Assembly (NCBI RefSeq): GCF_017068395.1
Contig: NZ_CP070619.1
Span: forward strand, 2,666,001-2,730,000
Direction: 5' to 3'
Length of the DNA: 64,000 bases
DNA from: Rhodococcus pseudokoreensis
Lineage (GTDB): Bacteria; Actinomycetota; Actinomycetes; Mycobacteriales; Mycobacteriaceae
The position numbers and the translations under genes were made by a program. This document shows, in pieces, positions 47,915 to 62,213 of the stretch; the first letter of the stretch is position 1, and the number at the start of each line of letters is the position of its first letter. The notes beneath the pieces were generated by a model, which saw nothing but the letters and a program-made list of their open reading frames with translations, was not told the origin of the DNA and did no database searches.

Positions 47915-47987
47915 GCCCCTATAGCTCAGTTGGTAGAGCTACGGACTTTTAATCCGCAGGTCGTAGGTTCGAGCCCTACTGGGGGCA
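47915..47987 (+). tRNA. tRNA-Lys (TTT), integration site of the island
   Basis: Full cloverleaf: acceptor GCCCCTA/TGGGGGC, D-arm GCTCAGTTGGTAGAGC, anticodon loop CTTTTAA (TTT), T-arm GTAGGTTCGAGCCCTAC. The 3' half from the anticodon loop onward belongs to the attL repeat, so integration keeps the tRNA intact. CCA is not encoded. The original downstream hairpin (CCTGACCAGGA/TCCTGGTCAGG, 47992-48015) could be its terminator. Confidence 0.96.
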
Positions 47988-49363
47988 CCGTCCTGACCAG
48001 GAACATCCTGGTCAGGCAGTGCAATGAAGACGTCCGGATTGGCGGGAGTGGTCACAAAGTGGTCACGCCCGCCTTTCTGGTCCCTGCTGAAACGGGGTAC
48101 GAGGCCGGCCGCAGCCTCTGCCGCCTTCGAGTCCACACCGGCGAGCAGATGGCTGTATGTGTCCGCGGTGATGGCGATCGATGAGTGCCCGAGACGCTTG
48201 GACACGATCGTCAGGTCGACGCCGGCGGCGAGGAGCAGTGACGCCTGGCCGTGGCGAAGGTCGTGCAGACGGATCGAACGGACACCGGCCGCCTTCGTCA
48301 GCTTGTTGAACTGGTCCGTGACCATCTGCGGCGGGTACGGATCCCCGTTCTCCCGGGCGAACACCAGGCCGTGGTGCACGTAGGCGCTCCCCCACTGCCC
48401 CCGTTCGAGCTCCTGAGCGAAGCGGTGGGCGAGCAGAACACCAGCCGTGTGCTGATCGATACCAACCACACGATCCTCACCGCTGGCGGTCTTGGGCTTC
48501 CCGAACTGAAACTGCCGGTGTTCCCCCTTGCAGAACCAGCAGGCGACACCTGTGCCGTCAATCTCCACGATCTGCTGACGCACGATGATGGTCTTGGCTT
48601 CGAGGTCGACATCCTCCCAGCGCAGGCCGCACGCTTCGCCGCGGCGAAGCCCCGTCATTGCCATCGTCTCGAACAGCGTCCCCAGCCGGTCCGTGGTCGC
48701 GTGGTCCAGGAACTTCCCGAGCTCGTCGGCTTCCCACGGCTTCACCTTCGGACGCTGAGCCCGGGGCAATTCCAGATTCTCCGCAGCGTTGAACGCCACA
48801 AGATGCTTCCGCTTCGCTGACGTGAGAGCAGAGCGCAGGGTGGCGTGGATGCGGCGGATGGTGGCCGGCGAGAGGCTCTTGGGGTTGCGTCGGGCGCCCT
48901 TGGCGATCTTCTCGCCAGGCTTCGGCGCCGTTTTCGGCTGCGCGATGTCGCGGAGGAACTTCTCCACGTGGGTGGCGCGGAGGTCGCCGAGACGTAGGCG
49001 CCCGAGGTGTGGGACCAGGTAGGCGGTCACGTGCTGCTCGTAGGACCGCAGCGTGGTCGGGCGGATGCCGGAATGCTCTTTGGCCTCCAGCCAGGAGCGG
49101 AGGTAGTCCGCCACCGTCAGCCTGTCGTCGTGGGCGATCTGGCCCGTGCCGACCTCATGGAGGAACTTCGCGAGCGCGGCCTCAGCCTCGTCACTCGACC
49201 GAAACCCCGACTTGCGAACCTGCCGGCGCTTCCCGGTGGCCGGATCCTGTCCCATGTCGGCGATGAACACCCAGCTGCCGTGGGGCTTGCGGCATGCCTT
49301 CCGCCGCCCTTTGGCGTCGTACTCGACCGAGCACTTGCACCTCTTCGACACCGAACCCTTCAT
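47939..49363 (-). CDS. int: Tyrosine site-specific integrase
   Basis: The 474-residue recombinase has an N-terminal AP2-like arm-binding domain (GSWVFIADMGQDPATGKRRQ), a SAM-like core-binding domain (near 65-165) and a C-terminal catalytic domain. The catalytic residues are visible: Arg in MTGLRRGEACGLRWEDVDLE near 240, the HDLRHGQASLLLAAG box near 377, His in RLGHSSIAI and the nucleophile Tyr in TADTYSHLLAGV near 411. The last residues (SRARTYDLRIKSP) are encoded by the tRNA-Lys repeat, with the TAG stop in chromosomal tRNA sequence at 47939-47941. The gene overlaps the repressor by 4 bp. Confidence 0.96.
   Translation of the reverse strand: MKGSVSKRCKCSVEYDAKGRRKACRKPHGSWVFIADMGQDPATGKRRQVRKSGFRSSDEAEAALAKFLHEVGTGQIAHDDRLTVADYLRSWLEAKEHSGIRPTTLRSYEQHVTAYLVPHLGRLRLGDLRATHVEKFLRDIAQPKTAPKPGEKIAKGARRNPKSLSPATIRRIHATLRSALTSAKRKHLVAFNAAENLELPRAQRPKVKPWEADELGKFLDHATTDRLGTLFETMAMTGLRRGEACGLRWEDVDLEAKTIIVRQQIVEIDGTGVACWFCKGEHRQFQFGKPKTASGEDRVVGIDQHTAGVLLAHRFAQELERGQWGSAYVHHGLVFARENGDPYPPQMVTDQFNKLTKAAGVRSIRLHDLRHGQASLLLAAGVDLTIVSKRLGHSSIAITADTYSHLLAGVDSKAAEAAAGLVPRFSRDQKGGRDHFVTTPANPDVFIALPDQDVPGQDGAPSRARTYDLRIKSP
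47944..48000 (+). repeat. attL: 57-bp direct repeat, left copy
   Basis: Identical over 57 bp to 62157-62213. It starts at the G just before the anticodon loop of tRNA-Lys and runs through the T-arm and 3' end to 13 bp past it. The CGGA-N7-TCCG anticodon stem (47942-47956) is the expected core site for a tRNA-targeting tyrosine integrase. Confidence 0.95.
48048..48066 (-). promoter_or_regulatory. Candidate integrase arm sites at attL
   Basis: Two direct copies of GTGGTCAC (48048-48055, 48059-48066) are separated by 3 bp. On the minus strand they read GTGACCAC-N3-GTGACCAC, the same unit as in the three internal 71-bp repeats. They lie inside the integrase 3' coding end. Confidence 0.6.
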
Positions 49364-49830
49364 TGGTCGCCTCTTTCTTGTTCGACGGGCGGGCCGGCCT
49401 CGTAGTCCGTTTCAGCCTTCCCGACTAGGTGGTCGAGAACCCGGCTTGTGGTGTCCCAGCTTCGCTCCAGGGCGGGGATTGATTGGTCTGCAAGGGTTTT
49501 GATCGACCGGGCCTGCTGGAGTGCGTCATTGATCAGATCGAGTTGATCGAGTACCTCATGCTGGAGAAGCGCAGGCATCTGCCCGCTTGGCCTAGCGTCC
49601 TCGATGCCGGCCAACTCGTCGATTCTTACCCGAAGGACGAGCGCCACGACCGGTGCTTCGGTCAATCTCACCGACCGCTGCCCGGTCTCGACCTTCGACA
49701 AAGTTCCCTGCGACCAGCCCAGTCCTCTGGATCGAAGCTGTTCAGCAAGCTGCCCCTGGGTCATGCCCAGCGACTCACGGAGTTCAACGATCTTGTTGCC
49801 GACCTCTTGGTCGGAATGATGTTCAGCCAC
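49360..49830 (-). CDS. XRE-family repressor
   Basis: The protein has an N-terminal Cro/CI-type HTH (GNKIVELRESLGMTQGQLAE, then SQGTLSKVETGQRSVRLTEA) and a helical C-terminal half rich in Leu and Gln that may dimerise. I prefer GTG 49830 (156 residues); ATG 49860 would place the operator TCGCAATTTGCGA inside the gene. It ends overlapping the integrase start by 4 bp, so repressor and integrase form one leftward lysogeny operon. It probably represses the rightward promoter at 49877-49905. Confidence 0.85.
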   Translation of the reverse strand: MAEHHSDQEVGNKIVELRESLGMTQGQLAEQLRSRGLGWSQGTLSKVETGQRSVRLTEAPVVALVLRVRIDELAGIEDARPSGQMPALLQHEVLDQLDLINDALQQARSIKTLADQSIPALERSWDTTSRVLDHLVGKAETDYEAGPPVEQERGDQ

Positions 49831-49842
49831 CGCTACACCGTA

Positions 49843-49918
49843 TCGCAATTTGCGAAACATGCAATACCGCGAAAAGTTGACAGGTGTTGCGAGGCGTGCT
49901 TATCTGGGTTTGCGAAAC
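49843..49918. promoter_or_regulatory. Divergent promoter-operator region of the island
   Basis: TTTGCGAAAC occurs twice, at 49849-49858 and 49909-49918, exactly 60 bp apart. The first copy is part of the perfect palindrome TCGCAA-T-TTGCGA (49843-49855). Between them lies a rightward promoter: TTGACA (49877-49882), 17 bp, TTATCT (49900-49905). The second operator copy overlaps its start point. This is the layout of a phage-type genetic switch. Confidence 0.7.
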
Positions 49919-49952
49919 ACGTGCAACTGCAAAACGCGAAATGGAGGTTGCA

Positions 49953-50201
49953 ATGCTCAGCAACTCGATCGACATGAACATCACCTGGACGCAAGAGGCG
50001 ATCGAAGGTCTCGGAGTCCGAACCGACCTGAAGACCGCACTCGGAATCTTCGGCATGGGCACGACCGCCGGATACAAGGCTGCCAAGCGTGGCGACCTGC
50101 CCTTTCCTGTCCTAACCATCGGGCGCAAGTACGTGGTCCCCGTCGCCGGCCTTCTCAAGGCGCTCGGTATCGACGCCGACGACAAGATCCCGGCCGCGTG
50201 A
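49953..50201 (+). CDS. Excisionase-like/HTH regulator
   Basis: ATG 49953 has GGAGG 5 bp ahead and gives an 82-residue protein. A winged-HTH of the MerR/Xis type is suggested by LKTALGIFGMGTTAGYKAAK followed by RGDLPFPVLTIGRKYVVPVA, the pattern by which DNA-binding domain proteins choose their target (helix, then the strand pair GRKYVVP). It is the first rightward gene opposite the repressor, where actinobacterial integrative elements and phages keep Xis or a Cro-like regulator. Longer frames upstream would overlap the promoter. Confidence 0.7.
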   Translation: MLSNSIDMNITWTQEAIEGLGVRTDLKTALGIFGMGTTAGYKAAKRGDLPFPVLTIGRKYVVPVAGLLKALGIDADDKIPAA

Positions 50202-50311
50202 CCCGGGCGAACTGCCCGCGAAATGAAGAACCCCCGGCGTTGATCTTCGCGGTTGCACCCGAGAAGCCGCCGAGGGCCTGAATTCCAACCCCCGCCAAGG
50301 AGTAAAGAATT

Positions 50312-50377
50312 ATGTACGGACAGTGTGCCACACACCCCCGACGAGTGCCGCATCTCGCCCTCGGCGGTGTGCGATGA
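50312..50377 (+). CDS. 21-codon leader-like ORF
   Basis: A short ORF (MYGQCATHPRRVPHLALGGVR) has a good ribosome-binding site (AAGGAG at 50298-50303) and its stop overlaps the next gene's ATG by 4 bp. The next gene has no better site of its own. Translational coupling is the likely role; the peptide itself is not recognisable. Confidence 0.45.
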   Translation: MYGQCATHPRRVPHLALGGVR

Positions 50378-50700
50378 ACACCGAACTCACCGACGTCCTC
50401 GGCATCCAGCAAGAACCCCCGTATGGCGTCGTCTCCACCCAGATGGCGGACGGCACCACGGTGGCGGACATTGGGCAGCTCGCGGTCTTCGACGGCGTCG
50501 TCCACATCATTCCCCGGCATGACCTCACCGACCAGCAGGACATGTACCTCAGCGCCGCTGCGGAGGATGCGTTCTTTACCGACCCGACCTCCGAGGCCGG
50601 GTGGGTGCCAGTCGTTCACGACAACCAGGTCGGCTGGGCCACGAAAATCATCCTGTCCACCAATCTCAACAGAGCTGGCTCGTTGGGAGAGGCCGCGTAA
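50374..50700 (+). CDS. Hypothetical island protein
   Basis: A 108-residue protein with no recognised domain. It is acidic and mostly beta-like in the middle (VADIGQLAVFDGVVHIIPRH). The ATG overlaps the stop of the 21-codon ORF and its own TAA overlaps the next ATG, so it belongs to the early operon running from the excisionase-like gene to the replication gene. Confidence 0.6.
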   Translation: MNTELTDVLGIQQEPPYGVVSTQMADGTTVADIGQLAVFDGVVHIIPRHDLTDQQDMYLSAAAEDAFFTDPTSEAGWVPVVHDNQVGWATKIILSTNLNRAGSLGEAA

Positions 50701-50900
50701 TGGCGTACCTCATCACCGATCTCGTCATCGACGACCTGCCCAGCGTCAAGTACAACGCTGAAACCAAGACTGTCCGGGTCACGTTCGGGCTTCAGGGGCA
50801 CTTGTCCCTGTCGATCGCCGAAGCGGTCCACGTCGTCACGGAGTTGGCGGCTGCGCTTGGTGAAGCCGAATCTGCCGAGGAGGTTGTCCGCGATGAATGA
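50700..50900 (+). CDS. Hypothetical island protein
   Basis: A 66-residue protein of unknown function. It combines a short beta-rich start (VKYNAETKTVRVTFGLQGHL) with a C-terminal helix (ALGEAESAEEVVRD). It starts in a TAATG overlap with the gene before and overlaps the following gene by 8 bp. Confidence 0.6.
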   Translation: MAYLITDLVIDDLPSVKYNAETKTVRVTFGLQGHLSLSIAEAVHVVTELAAALGEAESAEEVVRDE

Positions 50901-51084
50901 CCACATCGAAACCGGCGGCCACCAGGAACGCAAGGAGCAGGAACTGCTCGCTGAGCTACGCGAACTCGGCTACCGGCCCGCTGTCCGGTGCCTGTCATGC
51001 GGTCAGTGGCTCGTCGCCCACAAATCCATTCAGCGGCACCTTGGTCCGGTCTGCGCACGAAGAGCAAAGGACACTGCCGCGTGA
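50893..51084 (+). CDS. Small zinc-binding protein (DUF6011-like)
   Basis: The 63-residue protein has an N-terminal charged helix and a zinc-ribbon-like motif RCLSCGQWLVAHKSIQRHLG then PVCARRA, i.e. C-x2-C with a distal H and C. Small proteins with this pattern (DUF6011) are frequent in actinophages near replication genes. ATG 50893 overlaps the previous stop, and its own stop overlaps the GTG of the replication gene, so the genes are translationally coupled. Confidence 0.6.
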   Translation: MNDHIETGGHQERKEQELLAELRELGYRPAVRCLSCGQWLVAHKSIQRHLGPVCARRAKDTAA

Positions 51085-53048
51085 TCGCTTTCAACCGCGT
51101 CATCAACGCATTCGAGAACGCCGGCCTGACCGTTACCCATCGTGGGAGCGGTCGGGCCTCGGCCCAGGCGCCGGGTCATTCGCCGGCAGACCGGTCGGTG
51201 ACGATAACGGAAACCGTAGGTCGGGTGCTTGTCCACCCGCACGCGGGGGAGACTCTCGACCAGGTGCTCGGTGCGGTCGGGTTGGCCATCACCGACTTGT
51301 TCGATGACCCGAAGGGCATCACCTACGAATACCCGGATGGGCGCAAGGTCTCCCGAACCCCTGCGAAGAAGTTTTCCCAGGCCGGGAACACCAAGGGCAA
51401 CCAGATCTATCGAGCAGACAGGTTGGCCAACTCGACCACGGTCTACATGGTCGAAGGTGAGCAGGATGTGCACGCCCTCGAATCCGAAGGGGTCACCGCC
51501 ACCTGCACCGCAATGGGCGCGGGGAAAGCGCACCTCGCCGATCTGACGCCGTTGTACGGCAAGACGGTGATCGTCGTGCAGGACAAGGACGAGCCGGGCC
51601 GCAAGCATGCCGCGCAGGTGGCGGAACTTCTCGATGGCAAAGCGACGGTTGTCATCGTGGAGGCGAAGGTCGGGAAGGACGCCGCCGACCACATCGCCGC
51701 CGGATTAGGTGTGGACGACTTTCAAATGGTCGAAACCCCCGCCGCAGAATCCGCAGAACTTCCCGGCCCGTACAACGCCGAGGCAGAAGCCGAGTTCGCT
51801 CGACCAAAGCTATGGCGCGCAACAGAGTTGGTGGCTGCACGACAGCCGCAATGGCTCGCCAAGGGGCGCATTCCCCGGTCTGCAATCACGTTGCTGGTCG
51901 GCGGTGAAGGTATCGGCAAATCGGCGGCCTGGGTTTGGGTTGCCTCCCCGGTCACCACCGGTCGGGCGGTCCCCGAGTTCGGCATCCCCGCACGCGATCC
52001 CGAGGACGTCATCGTCATCGTCACCGAGGACGACTGGGCATCAACTGTGCGACCTCGCCTCGAAGTGGCCGGCGCAGACCTCGACCGCATCCACGTGATC
52101 TGTGCAGAACAGGACGGGTCAGGGGCTCCGACCTTCCCTGCCGACATCCACCTCATCACCAACAGTCACGTCCGGCCCGGTCTCGTGGTGGTCGACGCCT
52201 GGCTCGATACCGTTCCAGGTGGGCTGTCCGTGAAGGATCCACAGCAGGCGCGGCGGGCACTGCATCCGTGGCGGGAAGCTGCCACCCAGACCGGGGCCGC
52301 GGTAATGCTCCTGACGCACACGAACCGCATCTCCACGGGCAATGCACGAGACATGTACGGGGCCAGCGGAGAACTCCGCAAGAAGGCGCGTATGTCGCTC
52401 TTCGCCCAGGCAGACCCCGAACATGAGGGCTGTGTGCTCATCGGCCCAGAGAAGTCAAACCTGGTGGGTAAGGTCCCCGCCTCACGGTTCCGCATGGACA
52501 GCGTGCAGCACTTCGCACCCACCGAGGACGACGACGGCACCGTTCCCAAGTTGGTTCTCATCGGGGAATCCGAGCAGACCATGCGGGAACACATCGCGGA
52601 CCAGTACGACGACGAACGCGGGGATGGCAAGGAGGACCGGAACGGCATCGAAGAATGGTTGATGTCGTTCCTGAACATGGGTTCCCAGAAGGCGAATGAC
52701 GTCTACTCCGCAGCCGACGCGAACGGTTACTCGAAGGATCAGGCGAAGCGTGCCAAGAAGAAGCTGGGCATCAAAGCCAGTCGGCCCGGGGGTGAGGGGC
52801 CGTGGTTCTGGTCGTTGCCGAACCTAGAGAGCATCGACCCCCAACTAGGGAGCACACCCACCCCTGTATCTGAATCTGCGCTCCCTAGCTCCCTAGCTGC
52901 TCCCTTGCAGGTCAACGGAATGAAAGAGAGTGATCTAGGGAGCACAGGGGGGCTAGAGAGCGGTGTAGAAACACACACCCCTCCCCGCCCCCTAGGTCAG
53001 TGGCGCGTGTCGGGTGAACCACTCCGCCCGCCCGGAGACGTGGCATGA
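51081..53048 (+). CDS. TOPRIM-RepA-like replication protein (primase/helicase)
   Basis: GTG 51081 starts a 655-residue protein. A primase-like N-terminus (DUF-type zinc-less CHC region, residues 1-115) is followed by a TOPRIM domain (VYMVEGEQDVHALESEGVTA near 119, VIVVQDKDEPGRKHA near 156). A RecA/RepA-type ATPase domain follows, with Walker A LLVGGEGIGKSAAWVW near 272, Walker B RPGLVVVDAWLDTV near 368, and LLTHTNRISTGNARDMYGAS near 411. It resembles phage and plasmid primase-helicases that start replication. A low-complexity C-terminus (residues ~580-655) contains a DNA iteron cluster. It gives the island autonomous replication potential. Confidence 0.85.
   Translation: MIAFNRVINAFENAGLTVTHRGSGRASAQAPGHSPADRSVTITETVGRVLVHPHAGETLDQVLGAVGLAITDLFDDPKGITYEYPDGRKVSRTPAKKFSQAGNTKGNQIYRADRLANSTTVYMVEGEQDVHALESEGVTATCTAMGAGKAHLADLTPLYGKTVIVVQDKDEPGRKHAAQVAELLDGKATVVIVEAKVGKDAADHIAAGLGVDDFQMVETPAAESAELPGPYNAEAEAEFARPKLWRATELVAARQPQWLAKGRIPRSAITLLVGGEGIGKSAAWVWVASPVTTGRAVPEFGIPARDPEDVIVIVTEDDWASTVRPRLEVAGADLDRIHVICAEQDGSGAPTFPADIHLITNSHVRPGLVVVDAWLDTVPGGLSVKDPQQARRALHPWREAATQTGAAVMLLTHTNRISTGNARDMYGASGELRKKARMSLFAQADPEHEGCVLIGPEKSNLVGKVPASRFRMDSVQHFAPTEDDDGTVPKLVLIGESEQTMREHIADQYDDERGDGKEDRNGIEEWLMSFLNMGSQKANDVYSAADANGYSKDQAKRAKKKLGIKASRPGGEGPWFWSLPNLESIDPQLGSTPTPVSESALPSSLAAPLQVNGMKESDLGSTGGLESGVETHTPPRPLGQWRVSGEPLRPPGDVA
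52824..52961. repeat. Iteron cluster, candidate replication origin
   Basis: Seven copies of a 9-mer CTAG(G/A)GAGC lie within 138 bp: rightward at 52824, 52845, 52935 and 52953, and as GCTCCCT(A/T)G at 52880, 52888 and 52899. The first two are spaced 21 bp, two helical turns. They sit in the 3' coding end of the replication gene, in low-complexity codons. That is a typical location for an origin bound by the neighbouring Rep. Confidence 0.65.
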
Positions 53049-53144: not shown

Positions 53145-53384
53145 ATGACCACCTGCACCAAGTGTGAAGCCACATGGGGCGGAATGCATACCTGCCACTG
53201 CAGCGGATGCCACCACACCTTCTCCAGCCTGAGCGCCTTCGACCTCCACCGCCGAGGCGATCAATGCCGAACACCCTCCGACGCCGGCCTCGTCCTCGCC
53301 GACCGCGCCTACCCCTGCTTCACACGCCCCACCGACCACGAACACCCCCACTGGACCACTGACGGGCAAGGAGTCCTCGCATGA
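53145..53384 (+). CDS. FDXHR-type zinc-binding protein
   Basis: The 79-residue protein has a Cys-rich start (CTKCEATWGGMHTCHCSGCH) followed by FSSLSAFDLHRRGDQC, the FDXHR motif of a family of small phage zinc-binding proteins. The many Cys and His suggest one or two zinc sites. It overlaps the next gene by 4 bp. Function in phages is unknown; it may be a regulator. Confidence 0.8.
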   Translation: MTTCTKCEATWGGMHTCHCSGCHHTFSSLSAFDLHRRGDQCRTPSDAGLVLADRAYPCFTRPTDHEHPHWTTDGQGVLA

Positions 53385-53557
53385 CCCTCAACAGGTTCGG
53401 CGAAGACGTCGAAGCCGCCACCCCCAGCAACAGGCCCCATCACCTCGACTGCAAACGCGGATGGCTTGGCCAAGACCTCGACGGTCGCCCCATCCCCTGC
53501 ATCCAATGCAAACCCCACCTCGCCCATCGCAACTACCTGACCGGAGGCGCAGCATGA
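53381..53557 (+). CDS. Small Cys-containing phage protein
   Basis: A 58-residue protein with C-x16-C-x2-C spacing (DCKRGWLGQDLDGRPIPC then IQCKPHL), a pattern found in small actinophage proteins that may bind zinc. Both ends overlap neighbours by 4 bp, which supports its being a translated gene. Function unknown. Confidence 0.6.
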   Translation: MTLNRFGEDVEAATPSNRPHHLDCKRGWLGQDLDGRPIPCIQCKPHLAHRNYLTGGAA

Positions 53558-53811
53558 GAGACACCTTCTCAGAGGCGTTCCGACTCGCATCCCTCGCCGC
53601 AGACATCAACGAGGACTCAGGCCAGTCGGCGCTCGTCGAAGCCGTCAACGAACTCGACGTTGAACAGCTTCGACCCATCATCTTCGCCCAAGCACACCTC
53701 GCCGCCATGCTCACCAGCGAAATCGCCAACAACCACGACCTCCCCGGCGAACACCCCGAAATCCTCGCCAACGTCGCACACGGACTCCAAACCACGGCAC
53801 GGCAACCATGA
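53554..53811 (+). CDS. Hypothetical island protein
   Basis: An 85-residue helical protein (SEAFRLASLAADINEDSGQS, LRPIIFAQAHLAAMLTSEIA) without recognised domain. It overlaps both neighbours by 4 bp in the same coupled gene string. Confidence 0.6.
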   Translation: MRDTFSEAFRLASLAADINEDSGQSALVEAVNELDVEQLRPIIFAQAHLAAMLTSEIANNHDLPGEHPEILANVAHGLQTTARQP

Positions 53812-54248
53812 CCGCCGCGACCGGTCGACCACCAACAACGCGGGAGACGATTGCACCCGACGTCGCCAAGCTCCACGCGGAAGGCCACGGACGAAACGAG
53901 ATCGCTCGGCAACTCGACTGCTCCCCAAGCACCGTCACCAAAGCAGCAGAGATCGCCGGCGTCACATTCGACCGAACCGCCACAGTCCAGGCAACAGAAG
54001 CCGCCAAGCTCGACGCAAAGGCGCGACGATCACGTCTCGCGGTCCGCTGGCTCGACATCGCCGAACAAGCACTCGACGCCATCAGCCCACACAACCCCCG
54101 AGACGCCCGCGACCTGGCAGTCGTCGCCGGTGTCGCCACAGACAAGTCGCTACGCCTCGACGAGTTCGACAACACCGATTCCGACTACGCCACGGTGGAT
54201 GTCTGGCTCGCCGCGATGCTCACAACCAACCCAGGGACCGAACGATGA
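53808..54248 (+). CDS. HTH protein, possible small-terminase homologue
   Basis: The 146-residue protein has an N-terminal HTH (APDVAKLHAEGHGRNEIARQ, then LDCSPSTVTKAAEIAGV) and a C-terminal helical part containing RDARDLAVVAGVATDKSLRL. The AG-x-ATDK pattern recurs in small terminase subunits of actinophages. In satellites such as SaPIs a dedicated TerS redirects packaging to the satellite genome, and this protein could play that role. A simple transcription factor is the alternative. Confidence 0.6.
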   Translation: MTAATGRPPTTRETIAPDVAKLHAEGHGRNEIARQLDCSPSTVTKAAEIAGVTFDRTATVQATEAAKLDAKARRSRLAVRWLDIAEQALDAISPHNPRDARDLAVVAGVATDKSLRLDEFDNTDSDYATVDVWLAAMLTTNPGTER

Positions 54249-54303
54249 GCCGCAGCGCAATGTTCCATGCGTGCGCGCACGCGAGACCGGATGGGAGGCA
54301 CCC

Positions 54304-54873
54304 ATGGCTATACCGAAGCTGAGCGAGGAGGACGAGGCGAAGATCCGGGAGGGTCACCACCAGGGACGTTCGTTGAACTCGATTGCCCGGGACCTCGGCG
54401 TCAATCCATCGACCGTGAGTCGGTGGGCGAAGCGTGAGGGCTTGCTATGGACGGGTGTGCCGGCAGCCTCGACAGCCGTTCGGGATCGGCTGGCCTACAA
54501 CCGTCTCAGGCTGGCGGAGGCCGCGCTCGCCGATGCTCTTGCGATACGTGAGCGGCTGTGGGAGTCCCATGAGGTCATCGTCAACACCCCGGCAGGACCG
54601 GAGCGTATGACGATGGACCTCCCCGACGCGAAGGCGACCGCGGAGTTCTCGAAGGCTGTCGAACGCCTGGCCAACACTCATAGTGCGTTGTCCGAGTACA
54701 CCAAGGGCGCCAGTACGGAAGCCGCCAAGTCGATGCTCATGCAGATGCAGGAGGCGTTGGAGAGGTTCGCGGGCGAGTACGACGAGGAGAACGGCGGTCA
54801 GGAGCCACCGACTCCGACTGATGCCGAGATCGACGCCGAGATAGCGGCACTCGCCGACGAAACGGCTGGGTGA
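54304..54873 (+). CDS. HTH protein, second TerS-like or regulatory protein
   Basis: The 189-residue protein begins with a Hin/resolvase-like HTH (LSEEDEAKIREGHHQGRSLN then SIARDLGVNPSTVSRWAKRE). A long helical segment (RLRLAEAALADALAIRERLW) and an acidic C-terminal tail (PTPTDAEIDAEIAAL) follow. ATG 54304 follows GGGAGGCACCC. A 25-codon ORF starting at 54245, overlapping the previous stop, may couple translation. The architecture, HTH plus helical oligomerisation domain plus acidic tail, fits small terminases. The gene's stop coincides with the start of the first 71-bp repeat. Confidence 0.6.
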   Translation: MAIPKLSEEDEAKIREGHHQGRSLNSIARDLGVNPSTVSRWAKREGLLWTGVPAASTAVRDRLAYNRLRLAEAALADALAIRERLWESHEVIVNTPAGPERMTMDLPDAKATAEFSKAVERLANTHSALSEYTKGASTEAAKSMLMQMQEALERFAGEYDEENGGQEPPTPTDAEIDAEIAALADETAG

Positions 54874-54941
54874 CCACGGCGTGACCACACACCCTGCAAC
54901 CTGTGCGAATGCACCTCCCATCGGAGAACAAATCCGCAAGT
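54870..54941 (+). repeat. 71-bp att-like repeat A
   Basis: The repeat holds GTGACCAC (54870) and GTGACCAC (54881) separated by 3 bp, then 33 bp further the core ATCGGA-N6-ATCCGCAAGT ending at 54941. The same elements at identical spacing occur at 55907-55978 and 59859-59930. The core mimics the anticodon stem-loop of tRNA-Lys. It fills the 5' leader of the coiled-coil gene. Confidence 0.8.
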
Positions 54942-54979
54942 ACATGCACCACAACACAAACCGTCCACAGGAGGACACC

Positions 54980-55636
54980 TTGAAGATCACCGACACTGTT
55001 CGACGTTTCACCCAGGCCGCAGCCAAGGCCACCGAGGCAGCCGATGCGGCAACCGCCGCCGCCACCGAAGCCGACAACGCCGCGGCCGCCGCCGTGGAAA
55101 GCGAGACCGCACTGGAGCAGCGGATCATGGCCGGCGAGGACGTCGACCCCAACGCGCTCGACAAGGCCACCACGTCGACCCGCTTCGCCAAGCTGAAGGC
55201 AGTGGCCGCCCGCCGAGCCGCGGAGAAGGCCACCGAGGCGGCGGAGGAAGCACGGCAAGCCCGAGAGGTGGAGGAAGCCAAGGCCACGCTCGACCGGTTG
55301 CTGTCCGACACCGCACTCCAGCCTGTCCAGGACGCCTACATCGCGGCCGTGGACTCGATCCGCAACCTCATCGCCACCGTGGAACAGCGGATGACCGACG
55401 AAGACGCGATCGCCAGCGCGCAGGCAACCAGCCCGGACGAGCGGGCATTCAACACCGCCGCATGGAAGGTGCGCCATCCCTACTTCGCAGACCAGGGAGT
55501 TGACTGGCTGCGCGTGGCAATCGAGGAAGCACTCAACTTCCGGGCGCGGCCGAAGATCATGGGCGGCGCCGGCGGTAGCACTGCACAGACCCGGGAATGG
55601 CCCATGAGCTTCCACCGCATCCAGGAAATTCTCTGA
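54980..55636 (+). CDS. Ala-rich coiled-coil protein
   Basis: TTG 54980 has AGGAGGA 4 bp ahead and is preferred over a GTG at 54881, which lies inside repeat A. The 218-residue protein is a long Ala/Glu-rich helix in its first 120 residues (AAAKATEAADAATAAATEAD, AAEKATEAAEEARQAREVEE), then a compact part with NFRARPKIMGGAGG. Coiled-coil proteins at this place in phages can be scaffolding or head-tail proteins, but nothing identifies it as such. It lies alone with a 65-residue gene between repeats A and B. Confidence 0.65.
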   Translation: MKITDTVRRFTQAAAKATEAADAATAAATEADNAAAAAVESETALEQRIMAGEDVDPNALDKATTSTRFAKLKAVAARRAAEKATEAAEEARQAREVEEAKATLDRLLSDTALQPVQDAYIAAVDSIRNLIATVEQRMTDEDAIASAQATSPDERAFNTAAWKVRHPYFADQGVDWLRVAIEEALNFRARPKIMGGAGGSTAQTREWPMSFHRIQEIL

Positions 55637-55650
55637 GAGGACTGATCCCA

Positions 55651-55848
55651 ATGGACGATTTCACCAGCATCACCGATCCGGGCGAACGGCTCCGCGCTAT
55701 CCGCCAGTCGATGGAGGACAAGGCGGCGAGCCGCCCCCGTGTCGACAACCAGGGCCGACGTCTCGACAGGGAGAAGCCCGACCCGACCCGGCGCTGGGAC
55801 GGGCACGGTCGATTGATCGCAGAGTCGCCTGGTGACGACAACCCGTAA
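55651..55848 (+). CDS. Small charged hypothetical protein
   Basis: A 65-residue, highly charged protein (GERLRAIRQSMEDKAASRPR, LDREKPDPTRRWDGHGR) with no recognised domain. GAGAGGA precedes ATG 55651. It ends just before a strong terminator, closing the A-B block. Confidence 0.55.
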   Translation: MDDFTSITDPGERLRAIRQSMEDKAASRPRVDNQGRRLDREKPDPTRRWDGHGRLIAESPGDDNP

Positions 55849-55857
55849 CACCCCAAG

Positions 55858-56003: not shown

Positions 56004-56258
56004 ATGGTAAACCGAGACGACAAGGCCCCGCCCAGCTACGACGATCTGACATCGATGCTCTCCGGCCTCGACGACGGTGCGACCGAAAGTGTCCAACTCG
56101 CGCTGTCGATGATGAGCACAGAAGAGCTCCGCGACCTGAGTGTCGCCATGCAGGAAGTCATGCAGCACCATCGCCTGCTTTTCGCTCTGATGCATGACGT
56201 TCTCGCCCGGGAGACGGCGGTCCGACTTGCGCAGGCCCACGCAGAGGGGGTGCTCTGA
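56004..56258 (+). CDS. Small protein upstream of the tape measure
   Basis: An 84-residue acidic, helical protein (SYDDLTSMLSGLDDGATESV, MMSTEELRDLSVAMQEVMQH). ACAGGAG precedes ATG 56004, and its stop overlaps the tape-measure ATG by 1 bp. In siphophages the position directly upstream of the tape measure is held by tail assembly chaperones; this protein has that position and size, but I see no sequence match and no frameshift site. A chaperone for the tape measure is a fair guess only. Confidence 0.6.
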   Translation: MVNRDDKAPPSYDDLTSMLSGLDDGATESVQLALSMMSTEELRDLSVAMQEVMQHHRLLFALMHDVLARETAVRLAQAHAEGVL

Positions 56259-59200
56259 TGGCGCTCGACGTCGGTGAGCTTGTAGCTCGCCTCACAGTTG
56301 ATGACACCCGCTTCACCCGCGGGTTGCAGCAGTCCGAACAGCGGTTGCAGGATCTTGGTCGTACCGCCCGCACTGAAGCCGGTCGTGTCGACACCGCCCT
56401 CCGTGATGCTGGGCAGGGCGCGGACCGGTTGGGCACCAACGCGCAGAACGCTCGCCGCGACCTCGGCCGGGTAGGGGACACCAGCCGCGACATCGACCGG
56501 GTGGGGACGTCATCGCGGGACGCAGCCCGCCAGGTGGATCAGATCGGGGAGAGCGCACGCAGGGCATCCCAGGAAACAGGCCGCATCGGTGAGGGTGTCC
56601 GCGAACGCCTTACCGGTGCATTCCAGGGTGTCGGGGACCTCGCAGGCCGCACCGGCGAATCCGGGGGCGGCAGCTTCCTCGCGGCATTCGCGTCCAAAAT
56701 CGGGTCGCTGAGCGGCAAGGGCGGGCCCATCGCCGGATCACTCCTCGGTGTCACAGCGCTCGGTGTCGCCGCCGGCGCTGTGTTGGCGAATGCCATCGCG
56801 GACGGCATGGAACAGGAAGCCGCCCGCAACGACGTCCAGGCGAAGCTGAACCTCGACGACAAAACTGCTGCGAAGATCGGTCGGGCTTCGGGCGCGGCCT
56901 ACGCGAAGAACTTCGGCGAGTCCGTCCAAGCAAACATGGCCTCCACGGTGGCGTTGTTCGACTTCAAGCTCCTGGACGCGAGCTCCACCGAGAATGAGAT
57001 CCAGGCCGCTATCGAGAAGACGGAAACGCTCAACTCGTTGCTCGGCACAGAGACCGCCGAGACGCTGCGCGGCGTCGGCGGCCTGGTGAACTCGGGGCTG
57101 GTCGACGGATTCGACGAGGCCGGTGACTTCATCACCAGGGCTCGGACAATCGGCATGAATGCCCAGGGCGACCTTGTCGATTCCCTGTCTGAGTACTCGG
57201 CGGGCTGGAAGAACACGGGGCTGACAGCGGAAACCACCCTCGCTCTGATCAACCAGTCGATGGGCAAGGGATTCGGTGCCGACAACACCGACCGGGCAGC
57301 GGACGCGCTTCGTGAATTCGGCCGCCGCATCACCGAGGAGGGTGACACCATCGTCGCCACCCTCAATGACATCGGCCTCGACGGTCAGTCCATGTATGAG
57401 ATCTTCAAGAAGGGCGGCCCGGAGGCAGACGCTGCCTTCGACAAGACCTTCGACACCATCCGCAACCTCGAAGACCAGACCAAGAAGAACAACGCGGCCG
57501 CGGCACTCCTCGGTGACACCTCGGGCGACTTCTACTCCGCCCTCGCGAACTGGGACGTCACCACGGCTGTACAGAAGTTCGACAAGCTCGAAGGGTCCAT
57601 GCAGACCGCGTCCGACACCTTCGGTAAGGGCACGGCAGCATCGTTCGAGACGGCGAAGCGCAGCATTGTGACGTCAGCAGATGAGATCGAGTTGGCATTG
57701 GCGCAGGCGTTCGGTCCGGCGATGACAGATGCAGCGACCTGGGTCACCGAGCACAAGCCGGAGATCATTGCATTCTTCACCGGACTCGCCGATGCGGGGT
57801 TCGCCGCCTTGGATGCCACGATGGCGTTCTCCTCGGGGGCGTTGCGGGCGTGGGCGTTCTTCGCTGAGGGTGTCGGCGGCACCATCGGCACAGTCGTTCA
57901 GCAGTTGGCTGGTCTCGTCGATGCACAGGCCAGCGTCCTCGACCTGATCCCCGGTATGGGTGGTCAGGCTGACGACTTCCGGGACATCGCCGATGGTATG
58001 CGCGGGTTCGCGGACTCGGTCGGTACCGCCGGCGATAAGGCTCGCGGCATGGCCGACGTCATCGACGCCGGCCGACCTGTCATTCAGGGGATGCGGGACA
58101 GCGTCGCGGAGGCAGGCGCGCAGGCCGAAGAGTCAGCACGACTGATGCAGGCCCTGGGAACGACGGTTGTCGAAGGCATCCCCGATGACAAGTCGATCAC
58201 CATCTCGGACAACAGCCCGGAGACGGTGAAGAACCTCGAAGCGCTGGGATTGAAGGTGGAGAACACCCCGAACGGCATCAAGGTCACCGCCACGACAGAC
58301 GAGGCCGACCGCATCCTCGACGCGTACATCAATCAGCAGCGAAGCGTGAACGTTGATGTGAAGGTGCGGGCGTTGGCTGCGGCGGAGAACGAGGCGTCCC
58401 GGCTGGCCGCGGCCACCACCAACGAGGCGCTCGAAAGGTCCGGCGGGTACGTGCACTACGCGGACGGCGGTGTGGAGAACCATCAGGCTCAGATTGGTGA
58501 CGGTCGAACCCGGATCTGGAACGAACCCGAAACCGGCGGTGAGGCATACATCCCCCTCGCGGGGTCGAAGCGTCAACGCTCCGAGGCGATCCTCGGTGAT
58601 GTCGCGAAACGCTTCGGGTTCGGCCTGCTGAAGTTCGCGAACGGCGGTGTCGTCGAAAGTGCTGGTATCGGGAAGGGCGGTCTCGACGCGTCGATGTCAT
58701 GGGCTCGCAGCATGGACCCCGCCACCTATCTGATGGGCGGGTTCTCCACGGACAGCATCGACTGTTCCGGTGCCGTCTCGGGGGCGATCAACAAGGCGCT
58801 CGGTTTGGATGCGTTCGACTCCCGGATGTCGACGGTAAATGAGGGTTCGTGGTTGCAGGCCAGGGGCGCGATCCTCGGCAAGGGTCCGGAGGGAACGATC
58901 CGGGTCGGCTGGTACGACAACGGTGGCGGCGCCAACGGGCACACCGCGATGACGTATCCGGATGGGACGAACTTCGAATCGAATGGTTCGGAGGGTGTTG
59001 TTGTCGGCGGGGATACAGGTTGGGACGCTGGCATGTTCGATCAGCACGCGTGGTTTCCGATGAGTGGTGATCTCGGTCAGTCGTCGTCAGGTTCAGGCGC
59101 CGGCTCCACAGGGTCGGCCGACAGCGGCACTGTCACTGGCACGACGGATTCGGGTGTGTCGGTGTCGACGGATGGGCAGCGGGTGTTCGTCACCAACTGG

Positions 59201-59854
59201 CCCGGTAGTTCCTCGTCCTCCACGGGTACGAGCACGGGCGCACCCGCGGACCCCAAGTCGGACACCATCTTCTCCGCGGCAATCAAGTACCGGGCGAACG
59301 GTGGCATCGACAACCTCCCCGACCAGGCCGGCATCCAGCACGGAACCGTGTACAGGTACGGGGAACCGGAGACCGGTGGGGAGGCGTTCATCCCGCTCGG
59401 GTCGTCGAAGCGTCCCCGGTCTCTGTCGCTCACGAGGCAGGTTGCGAACCGGTTCGGGTACGAGTTGGTGCCGATGGCGGACGGTGGTCTCGGTGGGTTC
59501 GGCGGGTACCGCGGCAACTCGGACCGCCCCTCGTTGGACATCCCGTTGACCGCGGGCGGGTTGGCGGGCATGACCGCGAACCAACGCCGTGCCGCCCTGT
59601 ACAACCTCGGTGCCATCGGTGTCGGCGGCGCCTTCGCGGTGGCGTCCGGGTTCGATGCGGACGGGCGTTTCACCGGCCAGTTCGACACCGGCGCCAACTC
59701 CCACCCCGCACTGGAGAAGGCAGCGGGCCAGTTCCTCGAAGTCCTGAGCCAGATCCGCGACGCAGCGCAGGAAGGCAAGACCGTCAACGTGCAGGTCGAC
59801 GTCGATCAGGGGGCAGGCATGGCGAACATCGCGATCATGAAGAACGGCCTGTGA
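56258..59854 (+). CDS. Phage tail tape-measure protein with hydrolase-like domain
   Basis: The 1198-residue protein begins like actinophage tape measures (ALDVGELVARLTVDDTRFTR), has coiled-coil Arg/Gln/Asp repeats to ~145, a hydrophobic segment near 160-185 (SLLGVTALGVAAGAVLANAI), and a PhiC31-gp36-like helical middle. Near 835-836 DCSG and near 895 GHTAMT suggest an NlpC/P60- or CHAP-like cell-wall hydrolase. Two ~60-residue repeats flank it, each with EPETGGEA(Y/F)IPL and RFG(F/Y). Tape measures set tail length and help DNA entry through the wall. At this length it would specify a long tail. It is the only clear virion gene of the island and is bracketed by repeats B and C. Confidence 0.92.
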   Translation: MALDVGELVARLTVDDTRFTRGLQQSEQRLQDLGRTARTEAGRVDTALRDAGQGADRLGTNAQNARRDLGRVGDTSRDIDRVGTSSRDAARQVDQIGESARRASQETGRIGEGVRERLTGAFQGVGDLAGRTGESGGGSFLAAFASKIGSLSGKGGPIAGSLLGVTALGVAAGAVLANAIADGMEQEAARNDVQAKLNLDDKTAAKIGRASGAAYAKNFGESVQANMASTVALFDFKLLDASSTENEIQAAIEKTETLNSLLGTETAETLRGVGGLVNSGLVDGFDEAGDFITRARTIGMNAQGDLVDSLSEYSAGWKNTGLTAETTLALINQSMGKGFGADNTDRAADALREFGRRITEEGDTIVATLNDIGLDGQSMYEIFKKGGPEADAAFDKTFDTIRNLEDQTKKNNAAAALLGDTSGDFYSALANWDVTTAVQKFDKLEGSMQTASDTFGKGTAASFETAKRSIVTSADEIELALAQAFGPAMTDAATWVTEHKPEIIAFFTGLADAGFAALDATMAFSSGALRAWAFFAEGVGGTIGTVVQQLAGLVDAQASVLDLIPGMGGQADDFRDIADGMRGFADSVGTAGDKARGMADVIDAGRPVIQGMRDSVAEAGAQAEESARLMQALGTTVVEGIPDDKSITISDNSPETVKNLEALGLKVENTPNGIKVTATTDEADRILDAYINQQRSVNVDVKVRALAAAENEASRLAAATTNEALERSGGYVHYADGGVENHQAQIGDGRTRIWNEPETGGEAYIPLAGSKRQRSEAILGDVAKRFGFGLLKFANGGVVESAGIGKGGLDASMSWARSMDPATYLMGGFSTDSIDCSGAVSGAINKALGLDAFDSRMSTVNEGSWLQARGAILGKGPEGTIRVGWYDNGGGANGHTAMTYPDGTNFESNGSEGVVVGGDTGWDAGMFDQHAWFPMSGDLGQSSSGSGAGSTGSADSGTVTGTTDSGVSVSTDGQRVFVTNWPGSSSSSTGTSTGAPADPKSDTIFSAAIKYRANGGIDNLPDQAGIQHGTVYRYGEPETGGEAFIPLGSSKRPRSLSLTRQVANRFGYELVPMADGGLGGFGGYRGNSDRPSLDIPLTAGGLAGMTANQRRAALYNLGAIGVGGAFAVASGFDADGRFTGQFDTGANSHPALEKAAGQFLEVLSQIRDAAQEGKTVNVQVDVDQGAGMANIAIMKNGL

Positions 59855-59858
59855 TCAC

Positions 59859-59930: not shown

Positions 59931-59935
59931 CCGAG

Positions 59936-59969: not shown

Positions 59970-59980
59970 TTTATTTCGGG

Positions 59981-60790
59981 TTAGGACTCGAATGGCCAGT
60001 CCAAGAGCAGGAGTCGCCGCTCCAACTCGCGCACTCGCATGGACGCCTGAGTCCTCTTCGACATGTCAGTACTCTCCCTTAGGCTCGCGATGGCATCCCT
60101 TGCCAGCTCGGTAATGCGCCCCAGTTCGCCTCTCAGCCGCAGAACCTCGTCGTACAGTCCCGGCCGCGGTTGCCCAGCCCATTGCATCAGCAGATCCAAC
60201 CCCGGCCCGTAGCGCTCCCGCATTGCGTCCGATAGTGGTTGCATGTCCGCAACGTGCAACAAGATGGCATCTGGGTTGCGCGCAACGGCGCGCCGGAGGA
60301 TCCGCTCGGTCACCCGCCAGCACACGACCAGGTCCCCATCCTCATAAAAGTTGGTCGGATCCTCGAAGAACGCCCCGGTCACCCCGAGGTGGGCAGCCAG
60401 CGCATTGCGATCCGTGATCCGCGCAACGCCGGCGTCGTCGTTCACCTCAAACGCAATGGCTTCCGAGTCGAGCAGCACTTCCGCCGCAACATCGAGCGCA
60501 ACTTCCTCGGGGAGGCCACGCATTGGCGCAACGCGTACCCCGGCCCAGTTCGCCTCCCGCTCACGGAAGGCGGCCACATCGCGCCACAGGCACTTCAGGC
60601 GGCCGCACGGCACCCAATCCACCCTGCCCTCGAACTCGTCGTCAATCCATCGGATCTGAAGCCGCCGGTGGCGCTTTTGTTGGTGTCCTCGAAGCTTCCC
60701 GAACTTGAGTACTTCGATCTCGACCAGCGGTTCTGCGCGCTTCGACCGGTATGCGCAGCGATCGCCGACTATGAACGGATTCGAATCCAT
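59981..60790 (-). CDS. Accessory protein of unknown function
   Basis: ATG 60790, with GGAAGG ahead, gives a 269-residue protein that I do not recognise. A basic N-terminal part (RCAYRSKRAEPLVEIEVLKF, RGHQQKRHRRLQIRWIDDEF) reads like a small beta-barrel. The middle is acidic and mixed (VALDVAAEVLLDSEAIAFEV), and the C-terminus is a coiled coil (VLRLRGELGRITELARDAIA). It is the only leftward gene outside the lysogeny module and sits at the island's right end with its own promoter region. This is where satellites and prophages keep cargo such as anti-phage genes, so exclusion of other phages is a possible role. Confidence 0.65.
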   Translation of the reverse strand: MDSNPFIVGDRCAYRSKRAEPLVEIEVLKFGKLRGHQQKRHRRLQIRWIDDEFEGRVDWVPCGRLKCLWRDVAAFREREANWAGVRVAPMRGLPEEVALDVAAEVLLDSEAIAFEVNDDAGVARITDRNALAAHLGVTGAFFEDPTNFYEDGDLVVCWRVTERILRRAVARNPDAILLHVADMQPLSDAMRERYGPGLDLLMQWAGQPRPGLYDEVLRLRGELGRITELARDAIASLRESTDMSKRTQASMRVRELERRLLLLDWPFES

Positions 60791-60938: not shown

Positions 60939-61472
60939 ATGACGTCGACAACGCCCGCGGGCTGGTATCCCGATCCCCAACGCAAAGCCGTTGCACGCTG
61001 GCATGACGGCACCGGGTGGACGAAGCACACCACGAACGCGTCGACACCGCCGCCACCGCCGAAGCCCCCGTGGGGATGGAAGCAATGGTTGGTGGTTGCC
61101 GGCGCCGTGGTGGTGGCGTTTGGCGTCTATGTGGGGTATCACGCCATCACGGGCCCCACCGCTGAGGAGCAGGAAGCAACGGAGCAATCGCAGGCCGCGG
61201 CAGCCGCTGCATCTGAGGCCGCGTTCGATGCGAGATCTGCCGAGCTAGCCGCCCAGTCGAGCGCCGAAATCACGTGCGAAAAGCTGGTCACCAACAACCT
61301 GAAGACGCCGGCCACCGCGGACTTCGTGGAGGTGACAACCTACGAGGACACGGCCGGGGATTGGATCACTAAGGGTGCAGTCGACGCGGAGAACACCTTC
61401 GGCGCGAACGTGCGCACCACCTTCCTGTGCATCACCCACCAGGGCACCACTCGCATCGACAGAATCAACTAG
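60939..61472 (+). CDS. DUF2510-type membrane protein
   Basis: The 177-residue protein starts at ATG 60939 with a DUF2510 domain (PAGWYPDPQRKAVARWHDGT, GWTKHT) and a Pro-rich linker. One transmembrane helix (WLVVAGAVVVAFGVYVGYHA near residue 50), an Ala/Glu-rich helix and an outer C-terminal domain with two Cys (ITCEKL, TTFLCITHQG) follow. DUF2510 proteins are common in actinobacteria and their phages, and are membrane-bound. It is divergent from the unknown accessory gene. Superinfection exclusion is possible but unproven. Confidence 0.75.
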   Translation: MTSTTPAGWYPDPQRKAVARWHDGTGWTKHTTNASTPPPPPKPPWGWKQWLVVAGAVVVAFGVYVGYHAITGPTAEEQEATEQSQAAAAAASEAAFDARSAELAAQSSAEITCEKLVTNNLKTPATADFVEVTTYEDTAGDWITKGAVDAENTFGANVRTTFLCITHQGTTRIDRIN

Positions 61473-61649
61473 ACCTTGACGACCCATCAGTGATTAGCAC
61501 ACACGTTCGATCCGACGAAAAGCTCGACACGCCGCAACCTCGGTCGTCCGATTCGGCGGACCGCTGATTCACTCAATGTGCTGGTGCTGGTTCTCAGCTA
61601 ACCCACGGTTCATCCGTTCCGTGGCGTCACTTCTCATGAAAGTTGTTTC
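61473..61649. other. Intergenic gap, nothing clear
   Basis: This 177-bp gap contains no supported gene, repeat or terminator. Confidence 0.3.
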
Positions 61650-61964
61650 ATGTTCCCCATCACGGTTCCCTACCCGACCACGATCCTGTCGTACACCGCA
61701 CTCGCAAGGGACCTCGCTGATCCCGACAAGAAGGACACGCCGCTCATCGTTGATGTCGACACGATCGACAGGGATGGACGGAAGGTCACCCGCAGTGCCC
61801 TGGTCAACACGATCTCGGTCAGGTACGACCACGCGGCTAACCCGCAGCACTGGATCGAATTGGCGTTCGAGCACCCCGACCTCGAGGACGTGAAGGTCGA
61901 CCCTGACGCGGAGATCCGGGCGTACGAATTGACGTTCGAACACATCGAGCGTGCCCAGGTGTAG
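61650..61964 (+). CDS. Hypothetical protein at the right end
   Basis: A 104-residue protein of unknown function with beta-rich character (FPITVPYPTTILSYTALARD, KVTRSALVNTISVRYDHAAN) and an acidic middle. ATG 61650 is chosen. A strong terminator follows. It is the last gene before attR. Confidence 0.55.
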   Translation: MFPITVPYPTTILSYTALARDLADPDKKDTPLIVDVDTIDRDGRKVTRSALVNTISVRYDHAANPQHWIELAFEHPDLEDVKVDPDAEIRAYELTFEHIERAQV

Positions 61965-61974
61965 GGCGCGCACC

Positions 61975-62007
61975 CGGCCCCCAACCTCGGCAGGAGGTTG
62001 GGGGCCG
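61975..62007 (+). terminator. Strong terminator at the right end of the island
   Basis: Perfect 14-bp arms CGGCCCCCAACCTC (61975-61988) and GAGGTTGGGGGCCG (61994-62007) with loop GGCAG follow the last gene and would insulate attR. Confidence 0.85.
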
Positions 62008-62031
62008 TTCCCGTTGTGACGTGGCTTCAGA

Positions 62032-62105
62032 GTGGTCACAGACGAGGTGTGTGACCACATCACTAGACGTCACCAGGTGGCAGACGAAACGCCCGCCACC
62101 TGGTG
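62032..62105. promoter_or_regulatory. Candidate integrase/Xis arm sites at attR
   Basis: GTGGTCAC (62032-62039) and GTGACCAC (62051-62058) are the same 8-mer in inverted orientation, about 100 bp from the core. A perfect inverted repeat CACCAGGTGG/CCACCTGGTG (62071-62080, 62096-62105) follows. Together they look like the right arm of attP. Confidence 0.55.
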
Positions 62106-62156
62106 AAACAGTTCCTAGGAATCACTCGACATCATCAGGCATCACGTCGGGGTTCT

Positions 62157-62213
62157 GACTTTTAATCCGCAGGTCGTAGGTTCGAGCCCTACTGGGGGCA
62201 CCGTCCTGACCAG
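62157..62213 (+). repeat. attR: 57-bp direct repeat, right copy (tRNA-Lys 3' fragment)
   Basis: Identical to 47944-48000. It contains the tRNA-Lys 3' half from the anticodon loop but no 5' half, so it is not a tRNA gene. A hairpin CTGACCAG/CTGGTCAG follows it. Confidence 0.95.

Follow-up and report, generated by a model that had tools for sequence, protein, structure and literature searches.

A tRNA-Lys island of Rhodococcus pseudokoreensis with its own tape measure protein: a candidate member of a phage satellite family

A 14.2-kb island bounded by 57-bp direct repeats and inserted in a tRNA-Lys gene lies in the window, a stretch of 64,000 nucleotides of Rhodococcus pseudokoreensis DNA (NZ_CP070619.1, positions 2,666,001 to 2,730,000), on contig C6 of a 9.87-Mb genome. 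The island is probably a phage satellite of an unnamed Mycobacteriales family, found mainly in Rhodococcus and its kin, that redirects packaging and places its own tape measure protein (TMP) in helper tails. An earlier note on this DNA, made from its sequence alone, had proposed such a TMP-carrying satellite, and the proposal is strengthened by recurrent complete elements, by purifying selection on the TMP and by the finding of no portal, major capsid or major tail gene in 12 of these elements. As judged from the sequences compared, the family is marked by site-specific integration at tRNA genes through a conserved tyrosine integrase, own replication genes and TerS (sometimes TerL), and its TMP-bearing members by a size of 13-17 kb and an intact TMP, with no capsid, portal or tail-tube gene found; helper use and chimeric tails are what we infer for its members.

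Boundaries of the island and recurrence of its architecture

The two repeat copies, at 47944-48000 and 62157-62213, are identical at all 57 bp in a direct-repeat search. A longer pair of 68 nt is 93% identical at a spacing of 14213, with mismatches confined to the first 11 bases. The left repeat begins within the tRNA-Lys gene and includes the 3' part of the tRNA. In two related genomes (G001 and G006; 2 of 29 other tRNA-Lys loci) the left flank and tRNA are directly joined to the right flank, as expected of an empty site; at the remaining 27 loci the 1.5 kb examined contained nothing that matches the right flank at the DNA level. Repeats, an ARAGORN call of tRNA-Lys(ttt) and the empty site thus uphold the earlier placement of a tRNA-Lys island at 47944..62213. 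The integrase frame reads across the att core (47939-48000), such that its final residues are encoded by tRNA-Lys sequence.

Related elements were gathered along three routes. A TMP search led to islands in genome G023, on IMG contig L031 and in Rhodococcus sp. 1168 (L037, which is also L044). A search with F05, a coiled-coil protein, led to L133, L134, L160, L161 and pDJL3, and again to L032. An integrase profile (E <= 1e-100) applied to 401 genomes of the bacterial family gave 13 loci in 12 genomes, all of which were inspected; three of them (the window, G023 and L198, the same locus as L037) were already in the profile. Thirteen complete elements were obtained: repeats at tRNA genes delimit 12 of them, and the remaining one is a closed circle. 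A TMP or TMP-like gene is present in 12 of the 13, L200 being the one from which it is absent. Among these 12 the window was the starting point, L031, L037 and G023 came through the TMP, L160, L161 and pDJL3 through F05, and L199, L201, L203, L204 and L208 through the integrase (the L208 genome appeared in the TMP search as well). Because at least seven elements were fetched by integrase or F05, the presence of a TMP is not circular for those.

The repeat spacings of the 11 integrated TMP-bearing elements range from 13,001 to 16,876 bp (window, 14,213; L037, 14,119; L031, 16,661; L199, 14,921; L201, 13,824; L203, 16,876; L204, 16,288; L208, 13,820; G023, 13,001; L160, 15,039; L161, 15,130). 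The site is tRNA-Lys for the window, L037, L199, L203, L204 and L200, and by its core for L031; the others use tRNA-Met (L201, L208, L161), tRNA-Thr (L160) and a tRNA called Leu(taa) (G023). Whether islands of this architecture exist in other genomes had been left to be looked up, and the TMP-bearing complete elements, 12 with that of the window and of 13.0-16.9 kb, are such a set. One genome from another family of the same order, G189, carries two islands, L160 and L161, at different tRNA genes.

A census compared all open reading frames (ORFs) of at least 55 aa in the 12 elements with 45 phage loci and a labelled reference set. By this measure a portal, major capsid or major tail gene was found in none of the 12, and a TMP-type match in all 12; the TMP-like protein of L161 (838 aa) matches several PHROGs tape-measure families, with a best E of 2e-16. 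As a control, the labelled set was applied to four phage loci: it finds head and tail genes in the prophages L034 and L035, and tail genes in L033 and L038, which are shorter contigs. Two of the four, L033 and L034, are very close to reference phages and thus easy cases, and L035 is the harder test. Other particle-related genes are scattered: MuF (PF06152) in three elements (L031, L037, L199), the window type of TerS in three (window, L031, G023), a TerL of another type in five (L160, as two ORFs, L161, L203, L204 and pDJL3) and TAC in one (pDJL3). Beyond the complete elements TAC is present in L133 (phrog_3860) and, by similarity, in L157, L158 and L032 as well as pDJL3. A further 71 and 60 proteins gave no capsid, portal or major tail match among the 25 PHROGs families listed of 53 and of 41, respectively; one protein each matches families labelled 'minor head' (phrog_556), 'tail completion or Neck1', 'tail protein' and 'head-tail connector', most likely reflecting the gp10-like 109-aa gene of L157.

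F05 occurs in seven of the 12 elements and F18, a second coiled-coil protein, in two (window and L199). F05 had no match in 50,697 phage records, and of the 8,000 candidates that were scored, out of 5.8 billion proteins, 26 are relatives, those with names belonging to Rhodococcus, Prescottella, a Nocardiaceae bacterium and Antrihabitans.

In the integrase survey a TMP is present at nine of the 13 loci (window, G023, L198, L199, L201, L202, L203, L204 and L208) and absent from L200, L205, L206 and L207. References for portal, major capsid and major tail matched nothing in the 11 integrase loci annotated (E <= 1e-3).

These loci bear on the view that the island is a decaying prophage remnant, in which a siphoprophage ancestor was stripped of its genes for head, tail tube and lysis and kept the TMP by chance. 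The small size and the single large structural gene would suit such decay, remnants of this kind are common in actinobacterial genomes (PMC10023795), and degraded forms do occur here: L200 (G589), a complete 6,057-bp island at the same tRNA-Lys, has int, xis and pieces of a primase that look broken, and is possibly a deletion derivative; L207 is a scrap with a piece of F05; and the L202 TMP (G621), which resembles the TMP of a prophage resident in the window genome (68.5% over 321 aa), is split by an insertion sequence. However, 12 complete elements repeat the small architecture, with a TMP that is long and open, at several different tRNA genes and as a closed circle, and full-length prophages, which the earlier note had named as the sign of a simple deletion remnant, are not to be found with this integrase among the 13 loci. 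Together with the selection and exchange described below, this makes a remnant very unlikely.

The circular member is pDJL3 (L192, NZ_CP025962.1) of R. qingshengii djl-6-2, a closed circle of 15,865 bp deposited as a plasmid and typed as non-mobilizable. Its 18 annotated coding sequences include an integrase, a terminase and a 'phage tail tape measure protein', and none is annotated as capsid. The deposited plasmid is a member of the satellite family in its circular state. That form, and the replication genes that the elements carry, would also be compatible with an autonomous integrative plasmid, a phage-plasmid relic that makes no use of particles and in which the phage-type genes are passengers or have another role. 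Yet TerS or TerL, MuF, TAC and TMP genes are retained, an element typed as non-mobilizable and present in several genera needs a route of transfer, and no conjugation or partition genes were noticed, although no search was aimed at them. A plasmid of this sort is therefore highly improbable, and a satellite that travels in helper particles is preferred.

Selection on, and exchange of, the tape measure protein

The TMP is under purifying selection in both sister pairs tested, as estimated from dN/dS (0.18 for L157/L158 and 0.14 for L133/L134), which argues against a gene left behind by a decaying prophage. In L133/L134 the dS of TMP (0.72) and TAC (1.0) exceeds that of the backbone (TerL, 0.11; F05, 0.22; AAA, 0.28), which suggests that recombination has replaced the TAC-TMP module. 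In a tree of 25 rows island and phage TMPs are intermixed, the supported branches force at least four changes of label, and the island and phage labels are no more clustered than shuffled ones. The TMPs of island L032 and prophage L034 share 89% identity over 786 aa, that of island L031 is 65% identical over its length to the TMP of prophage L035, and that of the window is 47% identical (794 columns) to the L034 TMP. Such repeated exchange with phages while the backbone persists likewise speaks against a remnant. L133 and phage contig L038 share TAC (62% identity) and TMP (54%); the two bear the same IMG genome number, from which a common genome is inferred, and they are a candidate pair of co-resident satellite and helper.

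The TMP could serve another end than that of a ruler in the satellite's own particles. In one alternative the island is a real satellite and its TMP a dominant-negative decoy that spoils helper tails. Tail assembly is a known target: the Tab protein of phage JBD26 blocks it via the TMP (PMC10884400), and Rta of PLE11 requires the TMP of its helper. Most island TMPs, however, have the length usual for phages (1111-1536 aa in most; 784 aa in L160 and 838 aa in L161), and a phage-related TAC accompanies the TMP in L133, pDJL3 and L157. Size and TAC together suggest a working ruler rather than an inhibitor, and a decoy is considered unlikely.

In another alternative the TMP, together with MuF in some relatives, is ejected cargo that brings recipients a domain for opening walls or cleaving proteins, and has no bearing on tail length. 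The window TMP does contain a peptidase-like Cys/His segment (DCSG at 835, GH at 894), MuF is present in L031, L037, L199 and the L159 contig, and the three of these MuF proteins that were inspected for it (L031, L037 and L159) have a C-terminal domain with a HELGH motif. Nevertheless, DCSG was seen in five of 13 island TMPs, four of which also have GH, and MuF in three of 12 complete elements; neither is universal, as the TMP is among those elements, and cargo as the main role is extremely improbable. The MuF proteins with a C-terminal extension of about 350 aa and a zincin-like HELGH motif (L037:15121-17334, L031:11752-13950, L159:15039-17237; PF06152 in L037 and L031) occur also in L061 and L063, and hence in satellites and in larger phage contigs.

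A tentative extension of the satellite reading can be drawn for the family as a whole. It may use the TMP as its most constant virion gene and swap TMPs with phages to stay matched to its helpers; some members may also replace the other protein of the virion interior, the MuF minor head protein with its zincin-like C-terminus, and so re-dress the inside of the stolen particle and not its shell, with F05 and F18 as a new class of assembly factors.

Gene content, packaging and the likely helper

The genes of the island were scanned with Pfam and PHROGs as 20 ORFs, a few of them on the wrong strand, and five further genes were compared with PHROGs. The features are:

47915..47989, + strand: tRNA-Lys(ttt), integration site (ARAGORN)
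47939..49363, - strand: tyrosine integrase, 474 aa (PF00589 E 3e-23, phrog_1 E 3e-77)
47944..48000, + strand: attL, 57-bp direct repeat; near-identical cores bound sister islands
49360..49860, - strand: helix-turn-helix (HTH) repressor (HTH_3 E 4e-8, phrog_3)
49884..50201, + strand: AlpA/xis-like gene, labelled from position and by eye (phrog_32619, function unknown, E 6e-11)
50374..50700, + strand: small ORF matching no PHROGs family
50697..50900, + strand: small ORF matching no PHROGs family
50893..51084, + strand: small Cys-rich, zinc-finger-like ORF, motif seen by eye (weak PHROGs matches of unknown function, best E 8e-4)
50988..53048, + strand: primase/helicase (Toprim PF13362, AAA_25 PF13481, phrog_239), start perhaps at 51081
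53145..53384, + strand: FDXHR zinc-binding protein (PF24071 E 3e-18, phrog_2147)
53461..53811, + strand: small ORF matching no PHROGs family
53808..54248, + strand: HTH DNA-binding protein, TerS-type (phrog_5536 E 1e-22)
54304..54873, + strand: TerS-type small terminase, 189 aa (phrog_5536, function unknown, E 2e-38)
54881..55636, + strand: F18 coiled-coil protein, 251 aa (blastp E 7e-10 to L158)
55597..55848, + strand: small ORF matching no Pfam or PHROGs family
56004..56258, + strand: F08, 84 aa, preceding the TMP (weak alignment, 17-26% identity with sister-island counterparts)
56258..59854, + strand: TMP, 1198 aa (phrog_9228, 'tail length tape measure protein', E 1e-117)
59981..60790, - strand: protein of 269 aa, function unknown, no PHROGs or PADLOC match; a longer ORF of 350 aa has no Pfam or PHROGs match
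60939..61472, + strand: DUF2510-like membrane protein, labelled by eye (phrog_13160, function unknown, E 4e-15)
61650..61964, + strand: small ORF, no PADLOC match
62157..62213, + strand: attR, direct repeat

The integrase, repressor, xis-like, replication and TerS-like HTH genes claimed by the earlier note are all borne out, the xis label being weak (50% identity over 68 aa to the L031 counterpart), and the TMP at 56258-59854 stands as the sole large virion gene. None of the window genes scored convincingly as capsid, portal, TerL, major tail or tail tip in the Pfam and PHROGs scans, and the lysis-class matches consist of the peptidase-like segment of the TMP itself (phrog_998, E 0.002) and an insignificant spanin match (E 0.075), which agrees with the gene-poor virion set first described. 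At a size well under that of a phage, the element has genes for integration and replication and lacks a full set of particle genes.

Several island genes have counterparts in sister islands. The integrase is 69-74% identical to those of three of them (G023, L031 and L037), and the DUF2510-like protein resembles (29% identity, E 4e-15) the product of a gene close to the right end of L037. The stop codon of F08 overlaps the TMP start, and a similar small gene lies ahead of the TMP, or of TAC-TMP, in many sister islands. F18 is a diverged homologue of a gene downstream of the TMP in L157, L158 and L159; none of 200 shuffles reaches its score against L157, and two of 200 do so against L159. In L157 (11054-11575) and L158 the backbone is conserved and the F18 gene fast-evolving, with a dN/dS of 0.51; conflict with helper proteins may be the cause.

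The 189-aa protein was assigned to TerS mainly because of synteny: its relatives lie directly upstream of TerL and portal in all eight phage loci examined, including REQ3 gp34/gp35, some of the eight being identical or nearly identical phages. Against the PHROGs families of small terminase subunits the protein reaches an E of only 0.01. Its AF2 model (pLDDT 83) consists of an HTH, a long helix, a beta hairpin and another long helix, and the best Foldseek match of this model is a weak one (E 0.057) to an SPP1-like small terminase. The protein encoded at 53808-54248 has relatives in 22 prophage loci, and in L065 such a relative lies two genes before TerL. The two tandem phrog_5536 genes (53808-54873) amount to two different TerS-type proteins in one element.

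From this inventory a pathway can be proposed. Upon infection by, or induction of, a helper the element would excise, one relative being a closed circle, and would replicate by means of its own primase/helicase. TerS would bring the element DNA to the helper terminase and heads, and the element would supply its own TMP, around which helper tail-tube proteins would assemble. The tails formed would be chimeric, with the satellite determining how long they are, how they inject DNA and which wall-peptidase segment they contain. The likeliest class of helper is that of phages with REQ3-type heads, because the window TerS is 53% identical to that of REQ3 and the TMP 47% identical to that of L034; the L034 portal is 96% identical to the REQ3 portal, although the TMP of REQ3 is a different one.

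The window genome has a complete siphoprophage structural module of its own at about 7.43-7.45 Mb of C6 (L197, L196), with TerS, TerL, portal, capsid, tail tube, minor tails and a 1579-aa TMP; searches with single TerL and portal families had missed it. The resident TMP belongs to broad PHROGs families that it shares with the window TMP (phrog_10780, phrog_9228). A comparison of the two, suggested at the outset, gave a divided answer, the peptidase-like segment being alike and the rest not aligning.

Several observations weigh against a TMP-carrying satellite of REQ3-type phages. The identity of the helper is only guessed: the N-terminus of the REQ3 TMP matches the window TMP over only 62 aa, the resident prophage has a TerS of another family (phrog_1496), and its TMP can be aligned with that of the window only along about 158 aa, within the peptidase segment (32% identity), so that this prophage is not an obvious helper. 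The window has no F05 and no recognizable TAC. Four of the 13 integrase loci, one of them complete (L200), are without a TMP, which is consequently not obligatory for the integrase lineage. Finally, relatives with TerL, MuF or a gp10-like connector mean that the family grades towards partial phages.

Relation to described satellites

Classical PICIs and SaPIs are elements of about 15 kb with an integrase, an excisionase-like gene, a repressor, primase-type replication and a TerS-type gene. The integrase, repressor, xis/AlpA-like, primase-type and TerS-type genes of the window are all classical features of this kind, at a similar size; the difference is that the window carries a structural tail gene, the 1198-aa TMP.

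The PLE integrase is a serine recombinase, unlike the tyrosine recombinase (PF00589) found here. PLE satellites, of Vibrio cholerae, are nevertheless the closest in principle: they encode and use their own TMP, as was demonstrated in 2026 by transmission electron microscopy, western blot, mass spectrometry and tmp deletion (PMC12987554). PLE11 particles hold the PLE TMP and exclude that of ICP1, a difference of 95 aa in the TMP shortens the tails by about 10 nm, where 10-15 nm had been expected, and deletion of tmp lowers transfer by 96-99.9% in PLE1, PLE4 and PLE11 (PMC12987554). The likeness consists in a small satellite with its own TMP, PLE having its own TAC as well and using helper capsid and tail parts. 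The elements described here differ in host phylum and helper, in carrying TerS or TerL, F05/F18 and MuF, and in the siphovirus-type tails expected of them; PLE is set apart by description and not by sequence comparison.

Some cf-PICIs carry putative tmp genes (PMC12987554). As integrated satellites that depend on helper tails, a dependence that is probable here, they resemble the present family, but they encode capsid, protease, portal, connectors and terminase (PMC10690885), whereas no capsid, protease or portal was found in the window, and neither portal nor major capsid in the 12 elements. MulchRoom and MiniFlayer, satellites of Streptomyces phages, are likewise from Actinomycetota; their gene sets include terminase, portal, capsid, scaffold and adapter, and their paper never mentions a tape measure. 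REQ3-type phages hold relatives of the island TerS (REQ3) and of the island TMP (prophage L034), but at 39-40 kb, with heads, tube and minor tail genes, they are the probable helper class and not the same kind of element.

A search of the literature, preprints lying outside it, found no description of this family. The earlier statement that no described class has this content accordingly holds for the family and needs amending for the principle, PLE having its own TMP and some cf-PICIs putative tmp genes. The use of its own TMP by a satellite is thus known from PLE; the family and its hallmark proteins appear to be new.

Manipulation of tails by satellites has been demonstrated once, in PLE, with hints in cf-PICIs. 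If the present reading is true, of a family in Gram-positive soil bacteria whose most constant virion gene is the TMP, replacement of the tail ruler would be a wider satellite strategy that has probably arisen more than once. The differing, phage-swapped island TMPs offer natural pairs of matched and mismatched satellites and helpers, with which one could test which parts of a TMP must fit the helper tube, tip and chaperones, and why a ruler of one's own pays. A 2023 survey of actinobacterial prophages considered that elements below 15 kb could be satellites, experimental validation lagging behind (PMC10023795), and the family may explain some of the small 'plasmids' and 'remnant prophages' in actinobacterial genomes.

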